Source of the DNA: a virus | Virus record (IMG/VR): IMGVR_UViG_3300025138_005050 | Span: 1 to 25,161 of that record | Reading direction: 5' to 3' (one strand) | Length of the DNA: 25,161 nt | Shown here: one piece after another, positions 2 through 22,399 of the stretch | How positions within the stretch are numbered: the stretch's first letter is position 1 | Layout of the letters: the number at the start of each line of letters is the position of its first letter | The notes under the pieces: model-generated | Seen by the model: only the letters and a program-made list of their open reading frames with translations | The model's database searches: none | Told to the model about the DNA's origin: nothing | Program-made: the position numbers and the translations under genes

Positions 2-3000
2 GGGTCTTATTTAGTTGGCTCAACCACAGTAATAGACGCTAGTAGAAATGCTTCTTTTGCTAAACAAACTATAAACGCGACGATAGTCCCTAGCGCGTTT
101 GCTTGGTTAAACATAGGCTCTACAGGAGGCGGAGAAACAAGAGCAATAGACATTGACGGTGGTTGGAATGCAGGGGAAAGTAAGGCTATTAGCTTCACTT
201 ACGCAAGTTCCGCGTCTGACTTAGTAGGTCAAATAAAATCTACTCATATTAGTCCAAGTAGTTCACTTTCATTTGGCAGGCTTTTCCATAGCGGAAACAG
301 CAGTGTTTATCCTTTGGTGCTTACGTCTACAAGTACCACAGCCGCAGACTTGAATTTAATTGGTAATTTTAAGATATCTGGCGCCACAGTAATAGACGCT
401 AGTAAAAACCTGACTAACATTGGAACTTACACCGGTCTTGGGACTATGACCTTGGGTAATTATACAGGTGGTGAACAGTTACAATTCCTTGCTAATCCAA
501 ACGGCACTTCACACATCTATTGGAGAGACAACAATCAAACTGAGGGAACTTATTTAAAAGCTAAAGGTGAAGATTATGGTGGTGACATTACCTTTGGCGC
601 GAGATGGGATGATGATGAAGATAAAATATTCTTTAAGATTCGGCAATCATCTGCTAATGCAAACGCTCCAGATGCTCGTATTGGCATAGGAATTTCTCCA
701 ACTGAGATACTTCACCTGTATGAAGATAACTCTACAATGGGCAACACCACGCTCAAAGTCCACAACAACAAGACTGATGATGCGGCTGTTCTATGGCTTG
801 AAGGAAAGCGCACAAGCAATAATGACACCGCTCAAATTATTGGGGCTAATAATGGAAATATTGTTACTAACATAAGAACTTTTTCAAGCGGCGATAACGG
901 AGCTTTAAAGTTTTACACCTCCACTTCTGGAACTGGGTCATCGGTTGTAGAAAGGTTTGGCATAACTGACAGTGGAAATATTACTGTTGGCGGCACCACA
1001 GTAATAGACGGTAGTAGGAATATCACAGCGGCAACTGGTAATTTTACTGAATTAGTATCAACCCAAAGTTCTCATAACTATCTAAGAGTTAGAAGTAGCG
1101 GCTCTGGTGAAGCAATGATCCGCCACAGCAATACTGTCAGTGCTGATTGGTACGTTGGTCTAAGAGATCAAACTAGCAACAGCATAACTAATACTGGATA
1201 CCACATATATTCTGTTGCCGCAGGGCAAACGGTAGGGGGCTGGAACGCTGATCAGAATTTTTATGCTAGCAACAATGCAGAAATAGCAGGAACAATCTCT
1301 AGTGGAGCTATTACTGCAACTGGCGACTCTTCTGTCGGTGCAAGCGGCAATATTAGTATGTCGGCAGGTAGTGCTGGTCAATTTAAAGTCCTTGGAGCAG
1401 GTTATACAGGGGCAATTGCATTAGATGCTAATGCTATGCATATATACCATAATTCAAGTAGTAGAGATTTAGTGCTTGGAACTAATGAAACGGCAAGATT
1501 AAATATAAGCGGTTCTGGTTTATTTGATTTCCAAAATAACAATTTACAAAGCATAGGCACAATCTCTAGTAAAGCGGTTACGATAAATACCACTTCTGGC
1601 ACCCCCTTAAATGTTGATACTTCTGCTACCGCCCTACTTGTGCCGATAGGTGGAGCCGCACAAACTCAATATACTGACGTACAGTACATAACTGATGGCG
1701 GTAATGGAGAGATATTTAAGGCAGGAACAGGTTATTCGGGTTGGGGTGGAGTTAGAGCGTTCAACATCTACAATTCAAACGGTGTTATAGCTTTTCACCC
1801 CTCTGGAACTGCTAACGTATTACAAATAACGTCCACGGTAATAAATTCTACTAAGCCGATACAGATATCTGGTCAAACTGTAATAGACGCTAGTAGAGAA
1901 ATAAAAAATGTTCCTCGTATTTTCTTTAATTCTGGACTTCAAGCAGTAGATTTAAACAATGCAGATTCTCTTATATTTGATACACCTGATGGTCATTCTG
2001 CGTTATTACTAAGCGGTGGAACACTAGACACTAACTACCACAGTAACACTACACATTTCTTTAGAGGTACAGACCTTCTTGATTTTCATGCACAAATTGA
2101 TACTACTGGAATAAAAAGTTTTGGCGATTACAAGATAGGCGGCAATACAGTAATAGACGCTAATCGCCAAATATTTGCCAAAACAGGTACTCAGGTTGGC
2201 GAAGATGGAACATACGGTGGTTACGGAGTTGTTGGCTTTGGCGGCATCACCAATGGTTATAACCGCGTGTTTGGTAGAGATGACAACGCTGATGGCTTAT
2301 TCCTTGCGGCCGCGACAGGGCGAAATGTATTTGTACGATCCAATGGTGAAGGTAGCGACTCTATTGCTCTTGGCACAGATGGCACTTATTCTTCTTACAA
2401 GGTAGTAGCATTTGGAGGTGCCGTAGTTAATGGAAGAAACAGAATATTTGCAACACCGGATACTGCCGATGGTTTATATCTCTGTGCGGCAACAGGCAGA
2501 GACATTATTTTTAGACCTAATGGAAGTGGAGTAGACGCGTTTAAAATAACATCCGCAGGTAATTTTCAAGTTGGCACAAGCATTGTTATTGACGCTAGTA
2601 GGAATATCACAGCGGCACAAGGTAATTTTACAGGCACTCTTCAAGTAGGAGGCGGTGCGGCAGGGAATTCTTACGATAATGCAGGCTACAAACTATTGTT
2701 TGGCGGTGGTAATGGTGATTCTTTGGCAAACTATTACATCGGCACAAACCTAGAAAATGTTGGCGGCAATTACTCTAAGTTAGATTTGGTTTGGCACACT
2801 GGCATACGCATGGGAGCGCAGGGAACTTATGGCGGCATAAGGTTCTACAGCAATGAGGATTTAACCGCGAAAGTATTCTCTATCTGTGAAGGTTCTGGCG
2901 TTACTGACGTAAAAGTTTATAACGATTTAAACGTAGTTTCTAATATAGAAATAAATGGCACCACAGTAATAGACTCTAGCAGACAAGTCTTTGCAACTAA

Positions 3001-4303
3001 CCTTGAAGCTACAGGCGGGATTAATTTAAGGCGTAATTTAGGCTCTGCTACAGGTATATCTTTTTATACAAACACCTATTACAACTGGCAGATTTACATG
3101 GCACCCCAAGGAGCGACTAGCTGTGGTGCAAACGGAAACTTAACCGCACCTACAGGTCTTGCAGGTGTTACATCTTGGGCGTTGCGCTCACGTATGGAAG
3201 GTATAAGTACCTATGGTTGGGTCTGGGAAACAGGCGCATCAGGTGGAGGTGGTGCAACAGCTACAGCAAAAATGTCTCTGCAATCAACCACAGGAAACTT
3301 GCAAATAGCAGGAACTTTTACAAGTGGCGGTAGTTATAAAATTGGCACTGCCACAGTAATAGATAGTAGCCGCAATATCTCTATGGGTTCTAGCTTAACC
3401 GTTGCAGGTGATGGTGGGTCTAACTACACCGCTAACCACATTAGATTTATGTCTCATAATACTGCGCGTGGCGCAGGTCACTTTATGATGGATGATGGAG
3501 GCGCAAATACTTGGTATACAGGTACAGCGTATTCTGATGCGTTTAATAATTGGGGGGTTCATTACAAAGCGGCTAATGAAGACGAAGAAACAGCGTCAAC
3601 TGCTCGCAGAGTTTTCAGCGTATCTAAATCAGGGAGTTTAGCCGCGAATGGTAGCAGTCTTTCTCTAGGCACAACAACGGTCAGACTTATTAACGGCCCA
3701 TTCGTCAGCGGAAACGTAGGCTTAGAAGCTAACTCTACAAGCTACGGTTGTTATATGCAGGGCGGCACAACAAATTACGCCTACTTTAACAATACAAAAA
3801 CCGTCCTTAACCGAAGAATGGAGATATTAGCAAGCACATCTCAAGGCACTACAACGCCTAACATTAAATCAAAGGCGCAAGGAAGCGGTGATGGGGTTAC
3901 GCAACAACACATTCAGTTTACCGACAGCACTGGCAATGTTGATGGGCGAATTACATCTAATGGATTTGCTACAACATACGGAACAACATCTGACTACAGG
4001 AAAAAGGAAGATGATCGCCCGATGTCAGCGGCAACGCCTACACTTCTGGCTTTACGTCCTATTAACTTTCAGTGGAAAGGCAGTAATTTACGCACTGATG
4101 GATTCCTTGCTCACGAAGTCGCAGAGCTTGTTCCTGACGCAGTGGTTGGCGAAAAAGATGCAACAGAAGAAGTAACAGACGATGAGGGTGTTACCACTAC
4201 GGTTGACAGTTTACAGGCATTAGATCAAGCTAAGTTAATACCTTTATTGGTGAAAACGATTCAAGAGCTTGAAGCAAGAATTACCGCGCTTGAAAGCGCA
4301 TAA
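2..4303 (+). CDS. Tail fibre/spike protein with C-terminal S74 auto-protease chaperone (5' end cut off)
   Basis: The reading frame is open from the first bases, so the true start lies left of the window; a TTG near 314 is only an internal codon. At least 1,433 residues are visible. The body is rich in Gly, Ser, Thr and Asn and has eight irregularly spaced copies of a TVIDASR-like motif, as in beta-rich trimeric fibres. The last 104 residues begin at a Ser (codon 3989-3991) in SDYRKK and continue through a FLAHEVAELVPDAV-like stretch to a helical, coiled-coil-like end. This fits the Peptidase_S74 intramolecular chaperone, which trimerises, helps the fibre fold and cuts itself off before that Ser using a Ser-Lys dyad; the Lys five residues later is present. 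The protein probably binds the host surface. It is followed by lysis genes, as expected at the end of a late operon. The fold is well supported; the receptor is unknown. Confidence 0.9.
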   Translation, partial: GSYLVGSTTVIDASRNASFAKQTINATIVPSAFAWLNIGSTGGGETRAIDIDGGWNAGESKAISFTYASSASDLVGQIKSTHISPSSSLSFGRLFHSGNSSVYPLVLTSTSTTAADLNLIGNFKISGATVIDASKNLTNIGTYTGLGTMTLGNYTGGEQLQFLANPNGTSHIYWRDNNQTEGTYLKAKGEDYGGDITFGARWDDDEDKIFFKIRQSSANANAPDARIGIGISPTEILHLYEDNSTMGNTTLKVHNNKTDDAAVLWLEGKRTSNNDTAQIIGANNGNIVTNIRTFSSGDNGALKFYTSTSGTGSSVVERFGITDSGNITVGGTTVIDGSRNITAATGNFTELVSTQSSHNYLRVRSSGSGEAMIRHSNTVSADWYVGLRDQTSNSITNTGYHIYSVAAGQTVGGWNADQNFYASNNAEIAGTISSGAITATGDSSVGASGNISMSAGSAGQFKVLGAGYTGAIALDANAMHIYHNSSSRDLVLGTNETARLNISGSGLFDFQNNNLQSIGTISSKAVTINTTSGTPLNVDTSATALLVPIGGAAQTQYTDVQYITDGGNGEIFKAGTGYSGWGGVRAFNIYNSNGVIAFHPSGTANVLQITSTVINSTKPIQISGQTVIDASREIKNVPRIFFNSGLQAVDLNNADSLIFDTPDGHSALLLSGGTLDTNYHSNTTHFFRGTDLLDFHAQIDTTGIKSFGDYKIGGNTVIDANRQIFAKTGTQVGEDGTYGGYGVVGFGGITNGYNRVFGRDDNADGLFLAAATGRNVFVRSNGEGSDSIALGTDGTYSSYKVVAFGGAVVNGRNRIFATPDTADGLYLCAATGRDIIFRPNGSGVDAFKITSAGNFQVGTSIVIDASRNITAAQGNFTGTLQVGGGAAGNSYDNAGYKLLFGGGNGDSLANYYIGTNLENVGGNYSKLDLVWHTGIRMGAQGTYGGIRFYSNEDLTAKVFSICEGSGVTDVKVYNDLNVVSNIEINGTTVIDSSRQVFATNLEATGGINLRRNLGSATGISFYTNTYYNWQIYMAPQGATSCGANGNLTAPTGLAGVTSWALRSRMEGISTYGWVWETGASGGGGATATAKMSLQSTTGNLQIAGTFTSGGSYKIGTATVIDSSRNISMGSSLTVAGDGGSNYTANHIRFMSHNTARGAGHFMMDDGGANTWYTGTAYSDAFNNWGVHYKAANEDEETASTARRVFSVSKSGSLAANGSSLSLGTTTVRLINGPFVSGNVGLEANSTSYGCYMQGGTTNYAYFNNTKTVLNRRMEILASTSQGTTTPNIKSKAQGSGDGVTQQHIQFTDSTGNVDGRITSNGFATTYGTTSDYRKKEDDRPMSAATPTLLALRPINFQWKGSNLRTDGFLAHEVAELVPDAVVGEKDATEEVTDDEGVTTTVDSLQALDQAKLIPLLVKTIQELEARITALESA
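26..3372 (+). repeat. Eight dispersed copies of an ACAGTAATAGACGCTAGTAG-like repeat in the tail fibre gene
   Basis: Copies start near 26, 386, 998, 1877, 2147, 2582, 2963 and 3353. They encode the protein motif TVID(A/S/G)(S/N)(R/K). The copies are close to identical at DNA level, including wobble positions, although the sequence between them differs. The spacing is irregular, roughly 270 to 880 bases. This pattern fits modular shuffling of fibre segments by recombination at the repeats. Confidence 0.85.
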
Positions 4304-15087: not shown

Positions 15088-15558
15088 CTAACCTCTAAGG
15101 TAATCTAAACTAAGGCCATTGTTTTGGCTTATGTAACTGTCTGTAACAGCTTCTTTAAGCAGTCGGTTATCTAATTTAAAATCAAAGTAACCAGTAGCTA
15201 TTCCGTTTAAATACGCATCACTAGGAGGATAGATATTATCTTGGTCACACATGACATACAACATTACTTTTCCGTAGTGGGTATGTATAAACTTTTTCTC
15301 ATACAGGCTAGGGAACCCTTCATACCTGTCTAAGGATTTCTCGCAGGTGTCTGTTATTCGCCATAGCCCAAGTGGTACGGTACTTTTTCTCTCGGCACTC
15401 TCTACATCAGCAACCCCTCGGAACTTTAACGCATGACCTTCTAAATCATAGCTCGCTACAGGTTTTGCATATGGGCATCTAAAGCGCATTTGGTCCTTGT
15501 TTAAGTTAGAGCCATAAGCCCCATACAAATAGTCAGTGATTACAGTATTCTTTTTCAT
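15088..15558 (-). CDS. Gamma-glutamylcyclotransferase-like protein (AIG2/GGCT fold)
   Basis: The protein has 156 residues from the ATG at 15558, with AAGGGA upstream; the 18 codons upstream of it lack a ribosome site. The YGSNL motif (15-19), which forms the substrate loop, is present, as is LDRYEGFPSLY with the likely catalytic acid Glu80. These are hallmarks of gamma-glutamylcyclotransferases, which release 5-oxoproline from gamma-glutamyl amines or peptides. It lies 40 bases after the amidoligase gene and shares its promoter and terminator. The pair is a known association in comparative genomics: the ligase adds an amino-acid-type group and the cyclotransferase removes or processes it. The substrate here is unknown. 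Confidence 0.87.
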   Translation of the reverse strand: MKKNTVITDYLYGAYGSNLNKDQMRFRCPYAKPVASYDLEGHALKFRGVADVESAERKSTVPLGLWRITDTCEKSLDRYEGFPSLYEKKFIHTHYGKVMLYVMCDQDNIYPPSDAYLNGIATGYFDFKLDNRLLKEAVTDSYISQNNGLSLDYLRG

Positions 15559-15598
15559 TACGGTATTCCCTTTTTTGGTTAAATCAAGTTGGTAGCTT

Positions 15599-16633
15599 TT
15601 ACGCAAGTTCATCTTGTCGCTCTGCTAGGTAGTCGGTTATCTGGGTGGTAATTCCCATGCACATCCCTTCGTCATTTCTTGTGGTGGTAGGTAAAGATAA
15701 ATCATTAGCTCTTGTGATCTCGTTAAAGCTAAGTCCCCAGTTTTCTAAGCAATCAGCAACAATATAAACTGGCTTCATACCGCTAGCTCTACAGGTAGCA
15801 CCCTCTCGGTACAAAAACTCTGCAATATAATCATTACTTAATCTTGCGGCTATTTGGCCGTCCTTGGTTATATTCCAAGTTTTAGTTTTTTGGGCATAAG
15901 TCATTTCACCGCCCCACTTTGCAATCAGGTCTCTAAGCTGTGCGTACCACTTGCCTGAGTTGCTTGTTACTGCGTTGGTAAGCTCAATGCTCGTCTCAGT
16001 AAACTGCATCAAAAAGCTCAACCAGTTTACGATCTTTTTAAATTCAGTAGTTCCGCTATGCTGTCTAAACTCTATGGAGCCTCTATTGGCAATCTGAGCT
16101 AGGTTCACTTTAAAGTAGCGTCCTACGCTGTTTGCCGCCCTTTCTTTGGTAGCGGCACTCTTAACGGTATTCTTGTTGCTACCTATTGTCCTGCACCATT
16201 GAGGGCTACCTCTGCGCGATCTTGGCATACATAGGTCAATTTGCTCCTCGTAATTACTGTACCGCTCATAGGTGGTTTTGATTTGGTCAAGGGTCATATC
16301 TCTGCAATCTAAGTGAACGTGTAATCCACAACTTCTGTTTACCGTAACGCCTTCAACGCTTTCTAAAGCATTAACTACCTTCTCTAATTCCCTAACACCA
16401 TCAACACCATGCAGTATTGGGCTAACCAACTCTCCAGCGTAGCCTCTAACTGATCTCAAGCTAGCATCACTAACTATTTTCCAGTGTGGGCGTGTGCTGT
16501 GGTTGTAGCTCTCAATCTGGCAATCAACACCAGCAAGGTTAATCGCCTGCTCTACCTGTCTAAGGTTAGCGCCAACGAACTCAATCTCAATGCCAAACAT
16601 ACGGTTAGTAATCTTGGGTAGTGTATTGCTCAT
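15599..16633 (-). CDS. Amidoligase (COOH-NH2 ligase, glutamine-synthetase fold)
   Basis: The protein has 344 residues from the ATG at 16633, behind AAAAGGTGCAAGAT; the GTG nine bases upstream is less likely. The motifs are FGIEIEFVG (13-21), WKIVSDASLR (51-60), AGELVSPIL (66-74) and CGLHVHLDC (102-110). A later RTIGSNKNT and a RGSIEFRQHSGT stretch hold the Arg/Glu active-site residues of the fold. This matches the Amidoligase_2 family, which uses ATP to form amide bonds between a carboxylate and an amine in peptides or metabolites. It is longer than the core domain, and the C-terminal 130 residues are less clear. With the cyclotransferase it forms a self-contained operon inserted between two rightward blocks. 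Confidence 0.88.
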   Translation of the reverse strand: MSNTLPKITNRMFGIEIEFVGANLRQVEQAINLAGVDCQIESYNHSTRPHWKIVSDASLRSVRGYAGELVSPILHGVDGVRELEKVVNALESVEGVTVNRSCGLHVHLDCRDMTLDQIKTTYERYSNYEEQIDLCMPRSRRGSPQWCRTIGSNKNTVKSAATKERAANSVGRYFKVNLAQIANRGSIEFRQHSGTTEFKKIVNWLSFLMQFTETSIELTNAVTSNSGKWYAQLRDLIAKWGGEMTYAQKTKTWNITKDGQIAARLSNDYIAEFLYREGATCRASGMKPVYIVADCLENWGLSFNEITRANDLSLPTTTRNDEGMCMGITTQITDYLAERQDELA

Positions 16634-16677
16634 ATCTTGCACCTTTTATTGTAGGGGTTTATTTACTTAATACAGTT

Positions 16678-16705
16678 ATTATACACCCCTTGTTTACTAT
16701 TACAA
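16678..16705 (-). promoter_or_regulatory. Leftward promoter for the amidoligase operon, with operator-like motif
   Basis: The minus strand carries TTGTAA (16700-16705), a 16-base spacer and a consensus TATAAT (16678-16683). The 16-mer GTTTACTATTACAAAC (16692-16707, plus strand) covers the -35. It differs by one base from the copy at 6169-6184. Confidence 0.7.
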
Positions 16706-16748
16706 ACATTATTTGCACTAAATGGGCTTTTTTTTATGCTTTTCGGGC

Positions 16749-16777
16749 TTTAATGGATTTCAATCATGAGGTACAAT
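16749..16777 (+). promoter_or_regulatory. Candidate rightward promoter for the ParB-methyltransferase cluster
   Basis: TTTAAT (16749-16754), 17 bases, then TACAAT (16772-16777) give a moderate sigma70 match 29 bases before the ATG. This is the only long gap ahead of the cluster, and transcription changes direction here, so a promoter is expected. It lacks the 16-bp operator of the leftward promoters. Confidence 0.45.
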
Positions 16778-16806
16778 GTATTTAGACTTAACAATGAGGT
16801 GGTCAG

Positions 16807-17388
16807 ATGGCTAATTGGTCTGCTGAAAAAATTCAGCAAAAAAGTGTTGATGCTTTAATTCCTTACGACAGAAATCCTAATATTCACCCTGAATCTCAGA
16901 TAGACCAGCTTGCTAATGCTGTAAGAGAATGGGGGTGGACTGTGCCTATATTAATTGATGAAAATGACATGGTTCTAGCTGGGCATGGTAGGTTGTTCGC
17001 GGCTAAAAAACTAAAGCTAGATACAGTTCCTTGCATAGTAGCTGAGGGATGGAGTGAAGAGCAGAAAAAAGCATATGTTATAGCAGACAACAAGCTGTCT
17101 GAAAGTAGTCAGTGGGATGACGCGCTTTACTTCTCAGAGCTTAGGTCGCTATCAGATAATAATTTTGACCTTTCATTAATGGGTATGCATCCTGACTTTT
17201 CTTTTGATGACTTTTCCCCTAACTTGTCTCCAATGCAGACTTTTAGAGATGTTAATCAAAATGATATGGATAGGGCATCTACCAATCTTGAAAACAATAT
17301 AGCTGGAATATCATCAGACAACTCACTTGACGGTGTTGAAGTGACATGCCCTTATTGCGCTGAATCTTTTAAGTTTAGCGGATCATGA
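16807..17388 (+). CDS. ParB/Srx-type nuclease-domain protein with C-terminal zinc knuckle-like motif
   Basis: The protein has 193 residues. The ParB N-terminal/sulfiredoxin-like domain covers about 10-120: VDALIPYDRNPNIHP, AGHGRLFAAKKL (58-69) and AYVIADNKLSES (89-100). The GHGR..A motif is the nucleotide-binding box. There is no helix-turn-helix for parS binding, so it is not a partition ParB. In other phages and plasmids the same domain is fused to or next to DNA methyltransferases. The C-terminus has CPYC (181-184), half of a zinc site, which could pair in a dimer. A good ribosome site (GAGGTGG) precedes the ATG. The stop overlaps the next start (ATGA), the first of several such junctions in the cluster. 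Confidence 0.87.
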   Translation: MANWSAEKIQQKSVDALIPYDRNPNIHPESQIDQLANAVREWGWTVPILIDENDMVLAGHGRLFAAKKLKLDTVPCIVAEGWSEEQKKAYVIADNKLSESSQWDDALYFSELRSLSDNNFDLSLMGMHPDFSFDDFSPNLSPMQTFRDVNQNDMDRASTNLENNIAGISSDNSLDGVEVTCPYCAESFKFSGS

Positions 17389-17657
17389 CTAATGAAGAAG
17401 CTGTATCTATACTTGAATCGTGGAACTGGCGATTTGCTAAAAGTATGCCTAATATCCCTCATTCTTATGCAAGAAAATCAGATAGGTCAGATGTAGGCGA
17501 GTTCTTTAAGGTTGCAATGCATGTTAAAGATAATGGTGTTGCAGAAAGATTTTACTCTAAAACATATAAATATTTGTACACTGAAACCCACAAATACTGG
17601 GTTATGTATGAAAACATTGCTGAAGCCGAAATAATTAATAGAGCGGAGTTGAGATGA
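17385..17657 (+). CDS. Small conserved-looking protein in the methyltransferase cluster
   Basis: The protein has 90 residues. It is rich in aromatic residues: SWNWRFAKSMPNIPHSYARK, then DVGEFFKVAMHVKDNGV, FYSKTYKYLY and HKYWVMYE, ending ..IINRAELR. I recall similar small proteins next to phage DNA methyltransferases, but I cannot name a family. It has no membrane segment. It overlaps the ParB-like gene and the methyltransferase gene by four bases each (ATGA at both ends), so it is almost certainly part of the same functional unit, perhaps as a specificity or targeting subunit. Confidence 0.75.
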   Translation: MTNEEAVSILESWNWRFAKSMPNIPHSYARKSDRSDVGEFFKVAMHVKDNGVAERFYSKTYKYLYTETHKYWVMYENIAEAEIINRAELR

Positions 17658-18280
17658 TTACAAGTGTAGGTAAGCATAGAGTTCAAATGTCTGATGTTAT
17701 GAAAGGCATAGATAATTTAATGCAAGGCGAGCAAGCTGACTTTCTTTACAGTGATCCTCCTTGGGGCCAAGGGAATCTTAGGTACTGGCAGACAATAAAT
17801 AAAAGGCATACAGGTAGGGATAAGTCAGATATTGATTATGCTGAATTTTTGCCGTTTTATTTTAATATGGCCTATAAGTATGTCAAAGATATTTGCGTCA
17901 TTGAGTACGGTGAGAAATGGAGATATGACGTAATAAAGGTTGCTTCTGATGCTGGCTTTAAGCATTCAGGGGTATGCACTTCAATGTACCAAGCTGGAAA
18001 ACTTTTGCCCCTTGATGTACACGTTTTTAGCAAGTCTGGGTCAGTAGTAATGACTGATGACTTTAGGCGAGGTTGCTTGGAGTTTAAAGGTTTAAATTTA
18101 GTCAACTTTATCTTTGATCAAATGCTTCCTAAAAATTCAAAAATTGTTTTAGACCCTATGTGTGGAATGGGATACACAGCGCAAGCCACTGTAAATAAAG
18201 GATTGGCTTTTCGCGGAAACGAGCTTAATGAGAAACGCTTAGATAAAACTATAGATAGACTTAAAAAGGATGTTGGCTAG
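17654..18280 (+). CDS. DNA adenine methyltransferase-like protein with DPPW motif
   Basis: The protein has 208 residues. The catalytic motif IV is SDPPWGQGN (33-41). The AdoMet-binding motif I lies near the C-terminus as LDPMCGMGYTA (166-176), followed by FRGNELNEKR. This motif order is that of permuted, beta-class amino-methyltransferases, and DPPW is the form seen in N6-adenine enzymes, including MT-A70. All key residues are present, so it is probably active. The region between the motifs (about 42-160) is short, leaving little room for a target-recognition domain; specificity may come from a partner. It is coupled to its neighbours by overlapping start and stop codons. No restriction enzyme is visible nearby. 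Confidence 0.85.
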   Translation: MITSVGKHRVQMSDVMKGIDNLMQGEQADFLYSDPPWGQGNLRYWQTINKRHTGRDKSDIDYAEFLPFYFNMAYKYVKDICVIEYGEKWRYDVIKVASDAGFKHSGVCTSMYQAGKLLPLDVHVFSKSGSVVMTDDFRRGCLEFKGLNLVNFIFDQMLPKNSKIVLDPMCGMGYTAQATVNKGLAFRGNELNEKRLDKTIDRLKKDVG

Positions 18281-18861
18281 TGATTTATCACACCGCTTTA
18301 AAAAATAGGTCTGCTAATTATGATGGCATAAAAGAGACTGTTAGAGCGGATCATCCTAGAGGGGTTATGTTAAAGCATGATTTTGTATCTAATGGTTTAG
18401 CGCCTGAGTTTAATGAGTGCGATGTGCTATACGCAGAGCCTCCTTATGCTCATAGCGGCCTAAAAATATTTGATGCTAGGGCTGGCGTTAATGATAGAAC
18501 GTATAGCGATTTAATTAAGGCTATATCTAAAATTTTGCTTGAATGGACTAAGCCAGTATATTTGATTATGAGCAAAACAAATTTAGCAAAGTTACCTAAT
18601 CCAGATGTAATTGTAGAGACTACTTTAAATGGCGATGTGGTTTCAATGGGTGTCTGGAATGATAAAAACCCTATTTTACTCCCATCAACAGAGCTTATAT
18701 GTCAAGGACTTGGATCTAGGTATAAATACCTAGGTGATTTTACGTGCGGATATGGGACTCCAGTAAAAAACTTTATTAAGGGTGGGGGCGATAGGTTTGT
18801 GGCATCTGATTATGATGGTAAGTGTATAACTGTTATTTCTGGGCAAATGAGAAAAGTATGA
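18280..18861 (+). CDS. Divergent methyltransferase-like protein with EPPY in place of DPPY
   Basis: The protein has 193 residues and starts at a GTG that shares a base with the upstream stop (TAGTG), with AAGGA nine bases upstream. It has the same layout as its neighbour: a catalytic-loop motif YAEPPYAHSG (51-60) and a C-terminal DFTCGYG (153-159) in place of the usual DPFCGxG. The first Asp of the D-P-P-Y/W motif is Glu, and the AdoMet motif is altered, so activity is doubtful. It may be a structural or RNA/DNA-binding partner of the DPPW enzyme, or an enzyme with other chemistry. Its stop overlaps the IbrA-like start (ATGA). Confidence 0.72.
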   Translation: MIYHTALKNRSANYDGIKETVRADHPRGVMLKHDFVSNGLAPEFNECDVLYAEPPYAHSGLKIFDARAGVNDRTYSDLIKAISKILLEWTKPVYLIMSKTNLAKLPNPDVIVETTLNGDVVSMGVWNDKNPILLPSTELICQGLGSRYKYLGDFTCGYGTPVKNFIKGGGDRFVASDYDGKCITVISGQMRKV

Positions 18862-20060
18862 AAATCTTTTTAAGAGAAAGTGTTTACGAATCCGCTTTAA
18901 AGCGAATAAACCGTATATTTGACGAGTTTGATAATGTAGTTATTAGTTCCAGTGGAGGAAAAGATAGCACAGTCACTATGCAGTTGACGCTTCAAGTTGC
19001 GGAAGAGCGAGGTAGGCTACCTGTAAAAATGTTCTTTTTAGACCAAGAAGCGGAGTACAGAATGACCATTGAGTATATGAGGATTGCTATGGCAGATCCT
19101 CGTATTGAACCTCTTTGGGTGCAAGCTCCTATAAAGTTATTTAACGCCACATCTATGGATGACCCTTGGTTGATGTGTTGGAAAGAAGGCGAAGAGTGGA
19201 TGCGCCCTAAAGAGGCTATAAGCATTAAAGAGAATGTATTTGGCACTGAACGATTCCACGATATGTTTGTTAAGGCTTTAGATTATTGGTTTCCTAATGA
19301 ATCAGCGTGTTATCTAGCTGGAGTTAGAGCGGAAGAAAGCCCTACTCGCTTGGCTGGTCTAACCACTGCGGCAACCTACAAGGACATAACGTGGGGTAAA
19401 AAACTCAATGAGAAAAAAGGCCATTACACGTTTTACCCTATTTGGGATTGGTGCATGAGTGATGTATGGAAGTATATTCACGATGGAGGTTGGGAGTATT
19501 GCAAGATATATGATGAATTGTATAGGTACGGAATAAGCCCTCGCAATATGCGTGTATCAAACCTTCACCATGAAACGGCAGTGCATAGCTTGTTTTTCCT
19601 ACATGAAATAGAATCTGATACTTGGGATGCTTTAACTAAGCGTCTTGGGGGCATAAATCAAGCTAAACACATGAAGAAGAATGAGATGTTTGCGGTGCAA
19701 GAATTGCCTTATATGTTTGAAAGCTGGCAAGACTACAGAGATTATCTTACTGAACACTTGATAACCATGCCGAAGCATAGAGAGGCTTTTGTCAAAAAGT
19801 GGGCAAAGATGGATGATTTTTATGGTGATATGGCAAATCCTAAAGACTTGGTAAAAAAGCAAATATCATCATTACTAGCCAATGATTGGGAATTTGTAAA
19901 GTTAGCTGGATTTATGAATAGCCCCCCTATGATTACATACCGAGATTGGAGAAGAGGAAACATCTCTAACAGGCAAAGACTTGATAAAAACATGGTATAC
20001 ATTCAACCACACAAAATCGGAGAAATAGATGAGCGATTTGCCAAACCATCCAATAAGTGA
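18858..20060 (+). CDS. PAPS-reductase-fold protein, IbrA/DUF3440-like
   Basis: The protein has 400 residues from the ATG at 18858, which overlaps the upstream stop by four bases. The PP-loop SGGKDS (32-37) shows an adenylating N-type ATP pyrophosphatase fold shared with PAPS reductase and DndC. Other landmarks are FFLDQEAEYR, LAGVRAEESPTRL and FYPIWDWCMSDVWKYI. The C-terminal half fits DUF3440. The length and the ParB-like partner immediately downstream match the IbrA-IbrB pair known from E. coli prophages, where they affect expression of other phage genes. Phosphorothioation by DndC-like chemistry is conceivable, but no DndA, DndD or DndE is present here. The biochemical activity of this family is not established to my knowledge. 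Confidence 0.88.
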   Translation: MKIFLRESVYESALKRINRIFDEFDNVVISSSGGKDSTVTMQLTLQVAEERGRLPVKMFFLDQEAEYRMTIEYMRIAMADPRIEPLWVQAPIKLFNATSMDDPWLMCWKEGEEWMRPKEAISIKENVFGTERFHDMFVKALDYWFPNESACYLAGVRAEESPTRLAGLTTAATYKDITWGKKLNEKKGHYTFYPIWDWCMSDVWKYIHDGGWEYCKIYDELYRYGISPRNMRVSNLHHETAVHSLFFLHEIESDTWDALTKRLGGINQAKHMKKNEMFAVQELPYMFESWQDYRDYLTEHLITMPKHREAFVKKWAKMDDFYGDMANPKDLVKKQISSLLANDWEFVKLAGFMNSPPMITYRDWRRGNISNRQRLDKNMVYIQPHKIGEIDERFAKPSNK

Positions 20061-20595
20061 AGTTATATGGGCATCTATTGAGGATGTAACCCCTAATGAC
20101 TACAACCCTAACTCAGTAGCAGGTAAGGAGATGGGGCTTCTGTACACATCAATAAAGCATGATGGATATACACAGCCTATCGTTACTATATGGGATGAAG
20201 AATTAAAAAAGTACGTTATTGTTGATGGGTTTCATAGGTACTTCATATGTAAAAATAACAAAGACATTCAAGACTCAACTGGTGGCAGGGTTCCTATAGT
20301 AGTAATTAAGAAAAGTATTAATGAAAGAATGGCCGCTACTGTAAGGCACAATAGAGCTAGAGGGGCGCACTCTATTACAGGGATGTCTAACATGGTTTTT
20401 TCAATGCTTGATAATGGTTGGGAGGATGACAAGATATGTAACCACCTAGGAATGAGTGCTGATGAGTTGCTAAGGCTAAAGCACATAACAGGGTTTTCTA
20501 AGTTGTTTGCAGATGCAGAGTACAGCAAATCATGGACTACTAAAGACCAGATACGCATAAAGAAAGAATACAAATCTTTAGACAAATCTAAATAA
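20029..20595 (+). CDS. IbrB-like ParB/Srx-domain protein
   Basis: The protein has 188 residues. Its ParB-nuclease-type domain includes VTPNDYNPNSVA, DGYTQPIV, VIVDGFHRYF (64-72), then RHNRARGAH (106-114). The GFHR box is the nucleotide-binding motif in this subfamily. After it comes a helical region, WEDDKICNHLGMSADELLRL, that looks like a helix-turn-helix. It overlaps the IbrA-like gene by 32 bases, with GGAGAAATAG before its ATG. This is the standard order of ibrA-ibrB-type pairs in phages. It is the second ParB-like protein in the cluster but is clearly different from the first. Confidence 0.86.
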   Translation: MSDLPNHPISEVIWASIEDVTPNDYNPNSVAGKEMGLLYTSIKHDGYTQPIVTIWDEELKKYVIVDGFHRYFICKNNKDIQDSTGGRVPIVVIKKSINERMAATVRHNRARGAHSITGMSNMVFSMLDNGWEDDKICNHLGMSADELLRLKHITGFSKLFADAEYSKSWTTKDQIRIKKEYKSLDKSK

Positions 20596-20613: not shown

Positions 20614-21192
20614 ATGAGCCAGAAACTAACGGAAGATTTAAAAATAGCTATAAGAGATGAATTTGTTCATGGTTTTACTAATGAGCAGGGGGTTAGAACT
20701 TATCCTACTATAGACGCTTTAGTTAAGAAGCATGGGGTCTCTAGGTCTACTCTGTATAGTTATTCCTCAGATGAAAACTGGCAGTCTCAGAAAAACACTG
20801 TTCAAACTAAGATTCAAGAATCTTTAGATGAGGAGAGAATCAACAGAATGGTGTCTGACTCAAAGAGGTTGGATGATACGGCCATTCAGATAGCTCAAGC
20901 TATGCTTGGCAGGGTGGGGCAGAAGCTACAGAGGGCGCAACAAGATGAGAGGGTAGACCCTAATGAGCCTGTTAAGCCTTTTATTGAGGCTATGACAATC
21001 CAAGAGCTACAGGCGGCATCTCATGTTGCTCAGAATGCACAGAAACTTGGCAAACTCGCCCTAGGCGAAGCACAGGAAATTTCAAAGGTATCAGCAGATG
21101 TCAGCAACCCAGAAGCCTTCCACAGAGTTATGGAACAACTTGACGAGCTTGCGAACGCAAGGTCACAAGGCGGTAGCAAACCTCTACACTGA
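20614..21192 (+). CDS. terS: Small terminase subunit-like protein
   Basis: The protein has 192 residues. The N-terminal part has a helix-turn-helix, TIDALVKKHGVSRSTLYSYS followed by SDENWQSQK, as in small terminases and related phage DNA-binding proteins. The middle and C-terminal regions are long helices that could form the ring oligomer. It lies directly before and overlaps the large terminase by 95 bases, the usual place for TerS. It should recognise the packaging site on phage DNA. The ribosome site is weak. Assignment rests on position plus the fold. Confidence 0.8.
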   Translation: MSQKLTEDLKIAIRDEFVHGFTNEQGVRTYPTIDALVKKHGVSRSTLYSYSSDENWQSQKNTVQTKIQESLDEERINRMVSDSKRLDDTAIQIAQAMLGRVGQKLQRAQQDERVDPNEPVKPFIEAMTIQELQAASHVAQNAQKLGKLALGEAQEISKVSADVSNPEAFHRVMEQLDELANARSQGGSKPLH

Positions 21193-22399
21193 GTGGCTAT
21201 CTACAGCTAGGCCGACACAAATAACGCCTCAAGGCGATTGGAACATATGGTTAATATTAGCTGGTAGGGGGTGGGGAAAGACGCGTACAGGTGCGGCTGA
21301 CGCAATGCTTTACGCTCTGCGTAACCCTAACGTGCAGGTGGCCGTTGTGACTCCCACATTCGGAGATATTAGGCGCGTAGCGTTTGGTGGTGTGTCTGGG
21401 ATACTTAAAACCATGCCAGAGGGCTGTATGCTTGCAGGTAGAGGACAAGGATACAACTCATCAGCCTCAGAAATACGCCTGTTTAATGGCTCCATTATCT
21501 ATGGTTTTTCTGCTACTGAGCCTGATCGTTTAAGGGGTCCGCAGTTCCATAGAGCTTGGTGTGATGAGCTTGCCGCGTGGAGATACCCAGAAACCTTTGA
21601 CCAGCTTATGTTTGCTTTACGGCTAGGCAAAAACCCTCAGTGCATCATTACCACTACGCCAAGGCCAACACCTCTAATCAGGCAGTTGCTTGAACGAGAT
21701 GATGTTGTTGTTACCACAGGTAGCACTTTTGAAAATGAGGCAAACTTAGCATCATCCACCCTTGCGATGCTTAAACAAAAGTATGAAGGTACTACATTAG
21801 GTCGCCAAGAACTGTATGCTGAGGTATTAGATAACCTAGAGGGGGCGCTTTGGAATAACAGCATGATTGATGCGTCTAGACGGCCTAAAGATACTAAGGT
21901 TGAGTTCACCAAGGTTATTGTTGCGCTTGATCCAGCGGTTACTGCTAACGCTGATTCTGATGAAACTGGTATCGTAGTGGTAGGAAAAGACGCGCTGAAC
22001 AAGTATTATCTGTTAGATGATAGATCAGGCACGTATACTCCCGACGAGTGGGGAAGGTTGTCAGTAGAGCTTTTTTATACATGGCAAGCAAATTATATTG
22101 TCGCTGAGGTTAATAATGGCGGTGATCTAGTAGAAAGATTAATAAGAAGTATTGACACATCAGTGGGGTATAGATCAGTTCATGCAAGTAGAGGAAAGAT
22201 GCTTAGAGCCGAACCCATATCAGCATTGTACGAGCAGGGCAAAGTCCACCATCTGGGAGTTTATCCAGAGTTAGAAAGTCAGATGTGTACATACACAGGT
22301 GACAGGCCAAAACCCTCCCCCGATAGGCTTGATGCCTTGGTATGGGGATTAACTGAATTAAGCAAGTCACGCGGTGATATTGCTTGGAGAGTTTCATAA
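21098..22399 (+). CDS. terL: Large terminase subunit, Terminase_6/GTA-like
   Basis: The protein has 433 residues. The ATPase has Walker A AGRGWGKT (55-62), Walker B AWCDE (153-157) and coupling motif TTTPRP (185-190). The nuclease domain has ALDPA (276-280, Asp278), an AEVNNGG loop and a C-terminal PDRLDALVWGL with acidic residues. It drives DNA into the prohead and cuts genome ends. The motifs match the packaging terminases of HK97-like phages and gene transfer agents. The long overlap with TerS is unusual, but the ATG has AAAGGT eight bases upstream and no better start lies before the Walker A. The stop shares a base with the portal start (TAATG). Confidence 0.94.
   Translation: MSATQKPSTELWNNLTSLRTQGHKAVANLYTEWLSTARPTQITPQGDWNIWLILAGRGWGKTRTGAADAMLYALRNPNVQVAVVTPTFGDIRRVAFGGVSGILKTMPEGCMLAGRGQGYNSSASEIRLFNGSIIYGFSATEPDRLRGPQFHRAWCDELAAWRYPETFDQLMFALRLGKNPQCIITTTPRPTPLIRQLLERDDVVVTTGSTFENEANLASSTLAMLKQKYEGTTLGRQELYAEVLDNLEGALWNNSMIDASRRPKDTKVEFTKVIVALDPAVTANADSDETGIVVVGKDALNKYYLLDDRSGTYTPDEWGRLSVELFYTWQANYIVAEVNNGGDLVERLIRSIDTSVGYRSVHASRGKMLRAEPISALYEQGKVHHLGVYPELESQMCTYTGDRPKPSPDRLDALVWGLTELSKSRGDIAWRVS

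Follow-up and report, generated by a model that had tools for sequence, protein, structure and literature searches.

Several described systems resemble in part the six-gene cluster treated here, which lies in a virus contig of IMG/VR (IMGVR_UViG_3300025138_005050; its 25,161 bases were analysed as a whole and are called the window below). The genes are named by single letters, P, s, D, E, A and B, the last two encoding IbrA-like and IbrB-like proteins. According to PMC10434257, which cites Sandt 2002, IbrA and IbrB were first named as co-activators in E. coli. In the DNA modification loci of DndB–DndC, SspD and BrxP a PP-loop ATP-pyrophosphatase is found together with a ParB/Srx protein (PMC10853773, PMC12839542), and in the thymidine hypermodification cassettes of phages as well as with Mom of phage Mu transferases for acyl, glycosyl and other groups decorate the phage DNA, which thereby evades restriction (PMC7824862, PMC9599517). 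ParB domains fused to DNA methyltransferases (phrog_498) are further relatives. In the formation of tRNA lysidine, TilS adenylates a carbonyl of the tRNA base, which is then attacked by an amine. Here, we show that P, s, IbrA and IbrB form a conserved module, normally located just upstream of the terminase, and that D and E belong to a set of exchangeable enzymes in its variable slot. The cluster in the window is probably one assortment of a modular cassette for the hypermodification of bases in phage DNA.

Both members of the IbrA–IbrB pair are recognizable here, as neighbours whose order is that known from many phages; beside the pair of the inspected cultured phages neither s nor slot enzymes are found, the group of phage Hendrix excepted. 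The pairing of a PP-loop protein with a ParB/Srx protein is shared with DndB–DndC, SspD and BrxP, but in our module the cysteines are not conserved and swappable tailoring enzymes are present. With thymidine hypermodification and Mu Mom the module has a comparable set of decorating transferases in common, but its core consists of P, s, IbrA and IbrB. No hydroxymethyl-pyrimidine chemistry turned up in the module, for which no search with dedicated models was made, and a comparison of the GNAT of other loci with one Mom sequence gave no detectable homology (hhalign probability 0.4%). P and D resemble the ParB and methylase parts of the fused ParB–methyltransferases, but here the genes are split, D has only about 208 amino acids and is optional. 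IbrA possibly shares with TilS the logic of adenylation followed by substitution with an amine. IbrA/IbrB and phage hypermodification are already known kinds; this widespread cassette with swappable enzymes is apparently undescribed; no description of it was found in the open-access papers searched (a mention by Iyer/Aravind 2009, 2013 or by Lee 2018 is possible).

Conservation of the module across viral loci

Scans were anchored on four genes, D, E, IbrB and IbrA. Each of them covers the 80 most similar loci, which are related to each other, and the resulting proportions are not a census. The D and E scans of viral contigs, supplemented by a single scan of prokaryote genomes and by eight phage loci with annotation, comprise 113 non-redundant loci. 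Of the D-anchored loci, 46 have flanks of 3 kb or more on both sides; IbrA is present in 43 of them, IbrB in 42, P in 43, s in 42 and the large terminase subunit (terL) of this family in 26. IbrB was used as anchor to avoid the circularity of selecting on D or E, and the core is found here as well: with adequate flanks IbrA occurs in 50 of 51 loci, P in 48, s in 44 and terL in 46. D is encountered in 16 and E in 4 of these loci; instead, glycosyltransferases (GT, 21 loci), GNAT acyltransferases (18), class-I methyltransferases (MT1, 13) and S-adenosylmethionine (SAM) decarboxylases (SpeD, 9) occur. The near clade of the IbrA-anchored scan gives IbrB in 43/43, P in 41/43, s in 37/43 and terL in 38/43 loci, and its distant clade, which serves as internal control, contains IbrB in 17/17 loci, P in 5/17, s in 3/17 and a terminase in 2/17. 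Because of this sharp drop the association must be regarded as a property of one IbrA/IbrB clade and not of phage genomes generally.

Since the gene order shuffles, the linkage does not reflect one frozen operon: with M standing for D or E we found P-M-A-B 45 times, M-A-B-P 19 times, B-A-M four times and P-A-B-M three times, besides others, and A is directly followed by B 76 times. The 88 IbrB proteins fall into 67 clusters at 80% identity. Where terL was found, it lies at most 1.2 kb from the module in 51 of 57 loci, and in loci without that terL family other packaging-type open reading frames (ORFs; clusters of about 490 and 620 amino acids, recognized by sequence inspection only) are located nearby. 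The complete order P-s-D-E-A-B-terminase is seen again in loci L003, L006, L016, L048 and others. Locus L002 is not independent, being 99–100% identical and probably the same virus.

An earlier note on this DNA had taken the six genes for one functional cluster placed before the terminase, with the two methyltransferase-like proteins modifying a base. This interpretation as a whole is partly supported. That the genes work as one module agrees with their co-occurrence under four anchors, the shuffled order and the fused domains; the opposite outcome it had named, homologues standing mostly single without conserved neighbours, is not what the scans gave. The enzymes, too, are of the kinds that make up a pathway modifying nucleic acids, and the position directly upstream of the terminase is the normal one. 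The methyltransferase pair, in contrast, is not the heart of the system, since D and E are members of the exchangeable set and many loci possess neither, and the small protein, to which no role had been given, turned out to be part of the constant core.

Core proteins P, s, IbrA and IbrB

The small domain s shows the motifs W.FAKTMP..PH.Y, YKYWTMG and INRA in this order, and no curated family matches it above noise. Its AlphaFold2 (AF2) model is a small α/β structure of high confidence (mean predicted local distance difference test, pLDDT, 96); no fold of the PDB matches it above noise (best Z 3.4), which does not demonstrate a new fold. In single ORFs s is fused to MT1 (12 loci), SpeD (3) and GNAT (1). 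A tblastn search of one s–MT1 fusion against the phage collection gave no match, and the s profile later located s in Hendrix. SpeD acts on free SAM. Because its fusion partners are enzymes of unrelated chemistry, SpeD included, we consider s more likely to link them to the complex, as an adaptor, than to read bases.

P contains a ParB N-domain (PF02195, 2e-5) and has phrog_620 as its best PHROG (2e-46). It resembles the ParB half of the fused ParB–methyltransferases (phrog_498; PADLOC PDLC03229), whose methylase half resembles D, and a PADLOC match to MTase_II (1e-32) covers the ParB part. The residues G59, R62, N95, C181 and C184 are invariant in the alignment of the family. In Fusobacterium phage phiFN37 (L038, 8454-10483) the neighbours of a P-type ParB are a queuosine precursor transporter and a queuine tRNA-ribosyltransferase, and an IbrA–IbrB pair lies at a distance of 3 kb.

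IbrA exhibits both the SGGKDS PP-loop motif and the DUF3440 domain (PF11922, 7e-7) that define its family, together with matches to PAPS_reduct (PF01507, 1e-15) and phrog_2302 (1e-81). The closest PDB profiles are those of sulfate adenylyltransferase CysD and flavin adenine dinucleotide (FAD) synthase and not reductases, and to DndC there is a weak match (1e-7). In 38 aligned IbrA proteins no cysteine is invariant, the best columns reaching 29/38, 20/38 and 17/38. Judged from its profile, IbrA looks like an adenylyltransferase. The start codon is most likely ATG 18858 and not GTG 18822 of the mechanical ORF list because the family N-terminus MKI... matches there; the protein has 400 amino acids. 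IbrB is assigned by its profile (phrog_2159, 2e-67) and its adjacency to IbrA. In cultured phages a cupin domain with the annotation ectoine synthase either is fused to IbrB or precedes it (L037, 4608-5507, Mycobacterium phage Gaia gp104; L036, 5589-6519), and it is possibly another tailoring domain.

Exchangeable slot enzymes

D matches the DNA methylase family (PF01555, 0.0016), and its PDB profile matches are M1.HpyAVI, M.BceJIV, CcrM and MboIIA. DPPWG and CGMG are invariant in 20/20 homologues, and DPPW precedes the SAM motif DPMCGMG, the order of beta-class amino-methyltransferases. From motifs and profiles D is thus classified as a small beta-class DNA amino-methyltransferase, whose likeliest target we take, from the type of motif, to be N6 of adenine. 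In cultured phages D has a single match, at 25%, and E none.

E has no curated family matching above noise. Its profile is homologous to that of D (hhalign E=5e-6), and its AF2 model (pLDDT 93.6) finds DNA N4-cytosine and N6-adenine methyltransferases as top Foldseek matches (7e-5 to 1e-3, probability 1.00), so that by its model E carries the DNA amino-methyltransferase fold. In the 38 homologues motif IV varies (EPPY, EPPW, DPPW, DLPW, EISW, ETCW, MMPW) and a conserved catalytic (D/N/S)PP(Y/F/W) was not found, while GD(F/W)xCGYG is largely retained (GDFTCGYG here). With a catalytic motif that is degenerate across the E family, modification of a base by the pair, as proposed earlier, is not established. 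A role as simple inactive subunit of D, of the METTL14-to-METTL3 type, was considered and ruled out because 21 of 96 modules contain E but no D. In these 96 D/E-anchored modules E is never accompanied by GNAT (0/16) or SpeD (0/12); when one locus per 80% IbrB cluster is counted, the Fisher p-values are 2e-4 and 0.02, respectively, and ignore phylogeny beyond this clustering.

The further occupants of the slot became apparent by clustering the ORFs inside the module and checking them with Pfam and PHROGs. They comprise GNAT acyltransferases (PF13508/PF00583), SpeD (AdoMet_dc, PF02675), glucosyltransferase-like proteins (phrog_854) and class-I methyltransferases (PF13649 Methyltransf_25; PF13578/TylF-like). 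Pyruvoyl arginine decarboxylase PvlArgDC (PF01862, 1e-48), phosphatidylserine decarboxylase (PF02666, 6e-36) and a cytidylyltransferase (PF01467, 3e-15) are also among the ORFs; these three lie within or at the edge of modules (L073, 5925-6458; L164, 8557-9534; L127, 8374-8787, respectively). A recurrent protein of about 173 amino acids without Pfam match adjoins IbrA in L168 (1799-2320), L189 (510-1037) and L033 (2935-3447) and shows an HxD...H pattern resembling that of cupin/2-oxoglutarate oxygenases.

Just upstream of the cassette in the window a divergent pair of Amidoligase_2 (PF12224, 9e-35) and GGACT/AIG2-like (PF06094) genes is located (15091-16642, minus strand). This pair is present in 19 of 96 D/E-anchored and 5 of 80 IbrB-anchored loci, and in some loci the amidoligase is found between module and terminase. 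An amide-forming together with an amide-cleaving enzyme beside a putative amine-bearing modification is suggestive.

Cultured phages

Microbacterium phage Hendrix (NC_047977) carries a version of the module that spans the ends of its record, in the order of two GT-like genes, s-MT1 (gp152), N-acyltransferase of the GNAT type (gp151), IbrA (gp150), IbrB (gp1), two P-type ParBs (gp2 and gp3), gp4 and terL (gp5). D and E were searched for in Hendrix and neither was found, an empty result that on its own proves nothing. Because this phage is in culture, the module is testable at once. Further cultured phages with IbrA/IbrB are Streptococcus CHPC1230, Mycobacterium Gaia and Flavobacterium FPSV-F7 and FCV-1.

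Proposed function and alternative readings

We infer that the module produces a modified nucleotide with phage DNA as substrate, serving as protection against restriction. Its place directly before the terminase would allow replicated DNA to be modified before or during packaging. IbrA would use ATP for the AMP activation of a group that belongs either to the DNA or to a small precursor; together with IbrB it may do so on DNA directly or on a small acid subsequently attached to DNA. IbrB and P, both of the ParB/Srx type, would be nucleotide-dependent DNA-handling or kinase-like partners, and s would dock the tailoring enzyme onto the complex. In the assortment of the window the decoration would be done by the SAM-dependent D together with E, the direct target of D being most likely an exocyclic amino group, for instance adenine N6; in other loci GNAT, glycosyltransferase, class-I methyltransferase, SAM decarboxylase and others would take this part. 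With another slot enzyme the mark finally left would be chemically different, in keeping with an arms race against host restriction. The alternation of decarboxylases, GNATs, glycosyltransferases and methyltransferases would be understandable if the product bears an amine or a hydroxyl. In PP-loop enzymes of the CysD/FAD-synthase type an oxyanion is the acceptor of AMP. A more specific version, which we regard as rather doubtful, would be a new class of DNA base hypermodification in which the carbonyl of a base is adenylated by IbrA, acting with IbrB and P, by TilS-like logic, an amine or other small molecule is attached and the interchangeable decarboxylases, acyl-, glycosyl- and methyltransferases diversify the mark.

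Some observations weigh against DNA hypermodification. Many cultured phages carry the IbrA/IbrB pair without s, D or E beside it, which argues for a function of the pair on its own; in CHPC1230, Gaia, FPSV-F7 and FCV-1 neither s nor slot genes adjoin it. The rule that GT occurs only with E, seen in the D/E-anchored set, fails in the IbrB-anchored set and had to be withdrawn. Finally, the target of the tailoring enzymes could instead be tRNA, protein or a small molecule. A module directed to such a target (tRNA, a protein like terminase or RNA polymerase, or a nucleotide messenger) is unlikely: GNAT, SpeD and GT families do have many kinds of substrate and enzymes of the ParB/Srx fold can be kinases (a weak SbnI match points this way) or NTPases, but the predicted DNA-amino-methyltransferase fold of D and E, the ParB domains and the conserved place before the terminase fit DNA better. 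Ordinary anti-restriction methylation of adenine or cytosine by an orphan D, the remaining genes being no more than fellow travellers with regulatory or ParB/packaging tasks, we hold for quite improbable. Most IbrB-anchored modules manage without D and E and have GNAT, GT, MT1 or SpeD in their place, even if D appears to be an intact beta-class amino-methyltransferase and P and D look like the two halves of a fused ParB–methyltransferase.

Control of transcription or packaging, with IbrA–IbrB co-activating late or prophage genes and ParB proteins at packaging sites, would suit the historic name of the pair and its position before the terminase. It leaves the exchangeable acyl-, glycosyl- and methyltransferases and decarboxylases unexplained and has very little probability. 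Two sulfur-related readings are rejected because the cysteines are not conserved. DNA phosphorothioation of the Dnd/Ssp kind is highly improbable: IbrA matches DndC weakly, and DndC–DndB is likewise a PP-loop and ParB/Srx pair (PMC10853773), but neither the Fe-S cluster nor the dyad cysteines of DndC are conserved in IbrA, and among the gap genes, which were not searched with Dnd models, no cysteine desulfurase and no ABC-ATPase/DndE pair was noticed. Almost negligible is an auxiliary gene of sulfate assimilation (cysH), the usual label for viral genes resembling phosphoadenosine phosphosulfate (PAPS) reductase, which are interpreted in terms of sulfur cycling (PMC9301287). The PF01507 match and the filing of the family under auxiliary metabolism in PHROGs are in its favour; a conserved redox-active cysteine is missing from the 38 IbrA proteins, CysD and FAD synthase are the nearest profiles and the neighbours are not sulfur genes, so that from sequence comparison the sulfur-cycling reading lacks support for this IbrA clade.

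Should DNA hypermodification prove right, viruses would possess a widespread module that diversifies DNA chemistry by combining a fixed core with swappable tailoring enzymes, and a gene that has repeatedly been assigned to viral sulfur metabolism would in this clade belong to DNA modification. It would also suggest a function for the long-puzzling IbrA/IbrB pair and add the uncharacterised domain s as a marker of the module.

Organization of the locus

The six ORFs of the cluster are all found on the plus strand (Table 1). As described in the earlier note, they are joined by ATGA, ATGA, TAGTG and ATGA and by a 32-base overlap (20029-20060), and 18 bases separate B from the ORF resembling a small terminase subunit. 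The candidate promoter assumed in the upstream gap could not be substantiated: 14 promoter-like sites compare with 16.8 expected by shuffling, i.e. not above chance, and none is on the plus strand within 16643-16806.

Table 1. Genes of the cassette and adjoining terminase genes in the window
Gene	Predicted product and role	Position	Strand	Basis
P	ParB/Srx-domain protein with C-terminal CPxC; core gene	16807..17388	+	PF02195, phrog_620
s	Domain of about 90 amino acids; core gene	17385..17657	+	Alignment; AF2 model; fusions in other loci
D	Putative small beta-class DNA amino-methyltransferase; variable-slot gene	17654..18280	+	Motifs, PDB profile matches
E	Putative methyltransferase-fold paralogue of D (EPPY); variable-slot gene	18280..18861	+	hhalign, AF2, Foldseek
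A	IbrA-like, PP-loop (SGGKDS) and DUF3440; core gene	18858..20060	+	PF01507, PF11922, phrog_2302
B	IbrB-like ParB/Srx protein (DGFHRY); core gene	20029..20595	+	phrog_2159, IbrA adjacency
	Terminase small-subunit-like; context	20614..21192	+	Weak phrog_2538 match; precedes terL
terL	Terminase large subunit; conserved downstream neighbour	21098..22399	+	PF03237 7e-17, PF17289 4e-15

The G+C content of the cassette (16807-20595) is 38.3% compared with 42.0% in the remaining contig, which is consistent with horizontal movement. Positions 314-4303 of the window encode a large protein of tail-fibre type, whose C-terminal part is an endosialidase chaperone domain (Peptidase_S74).

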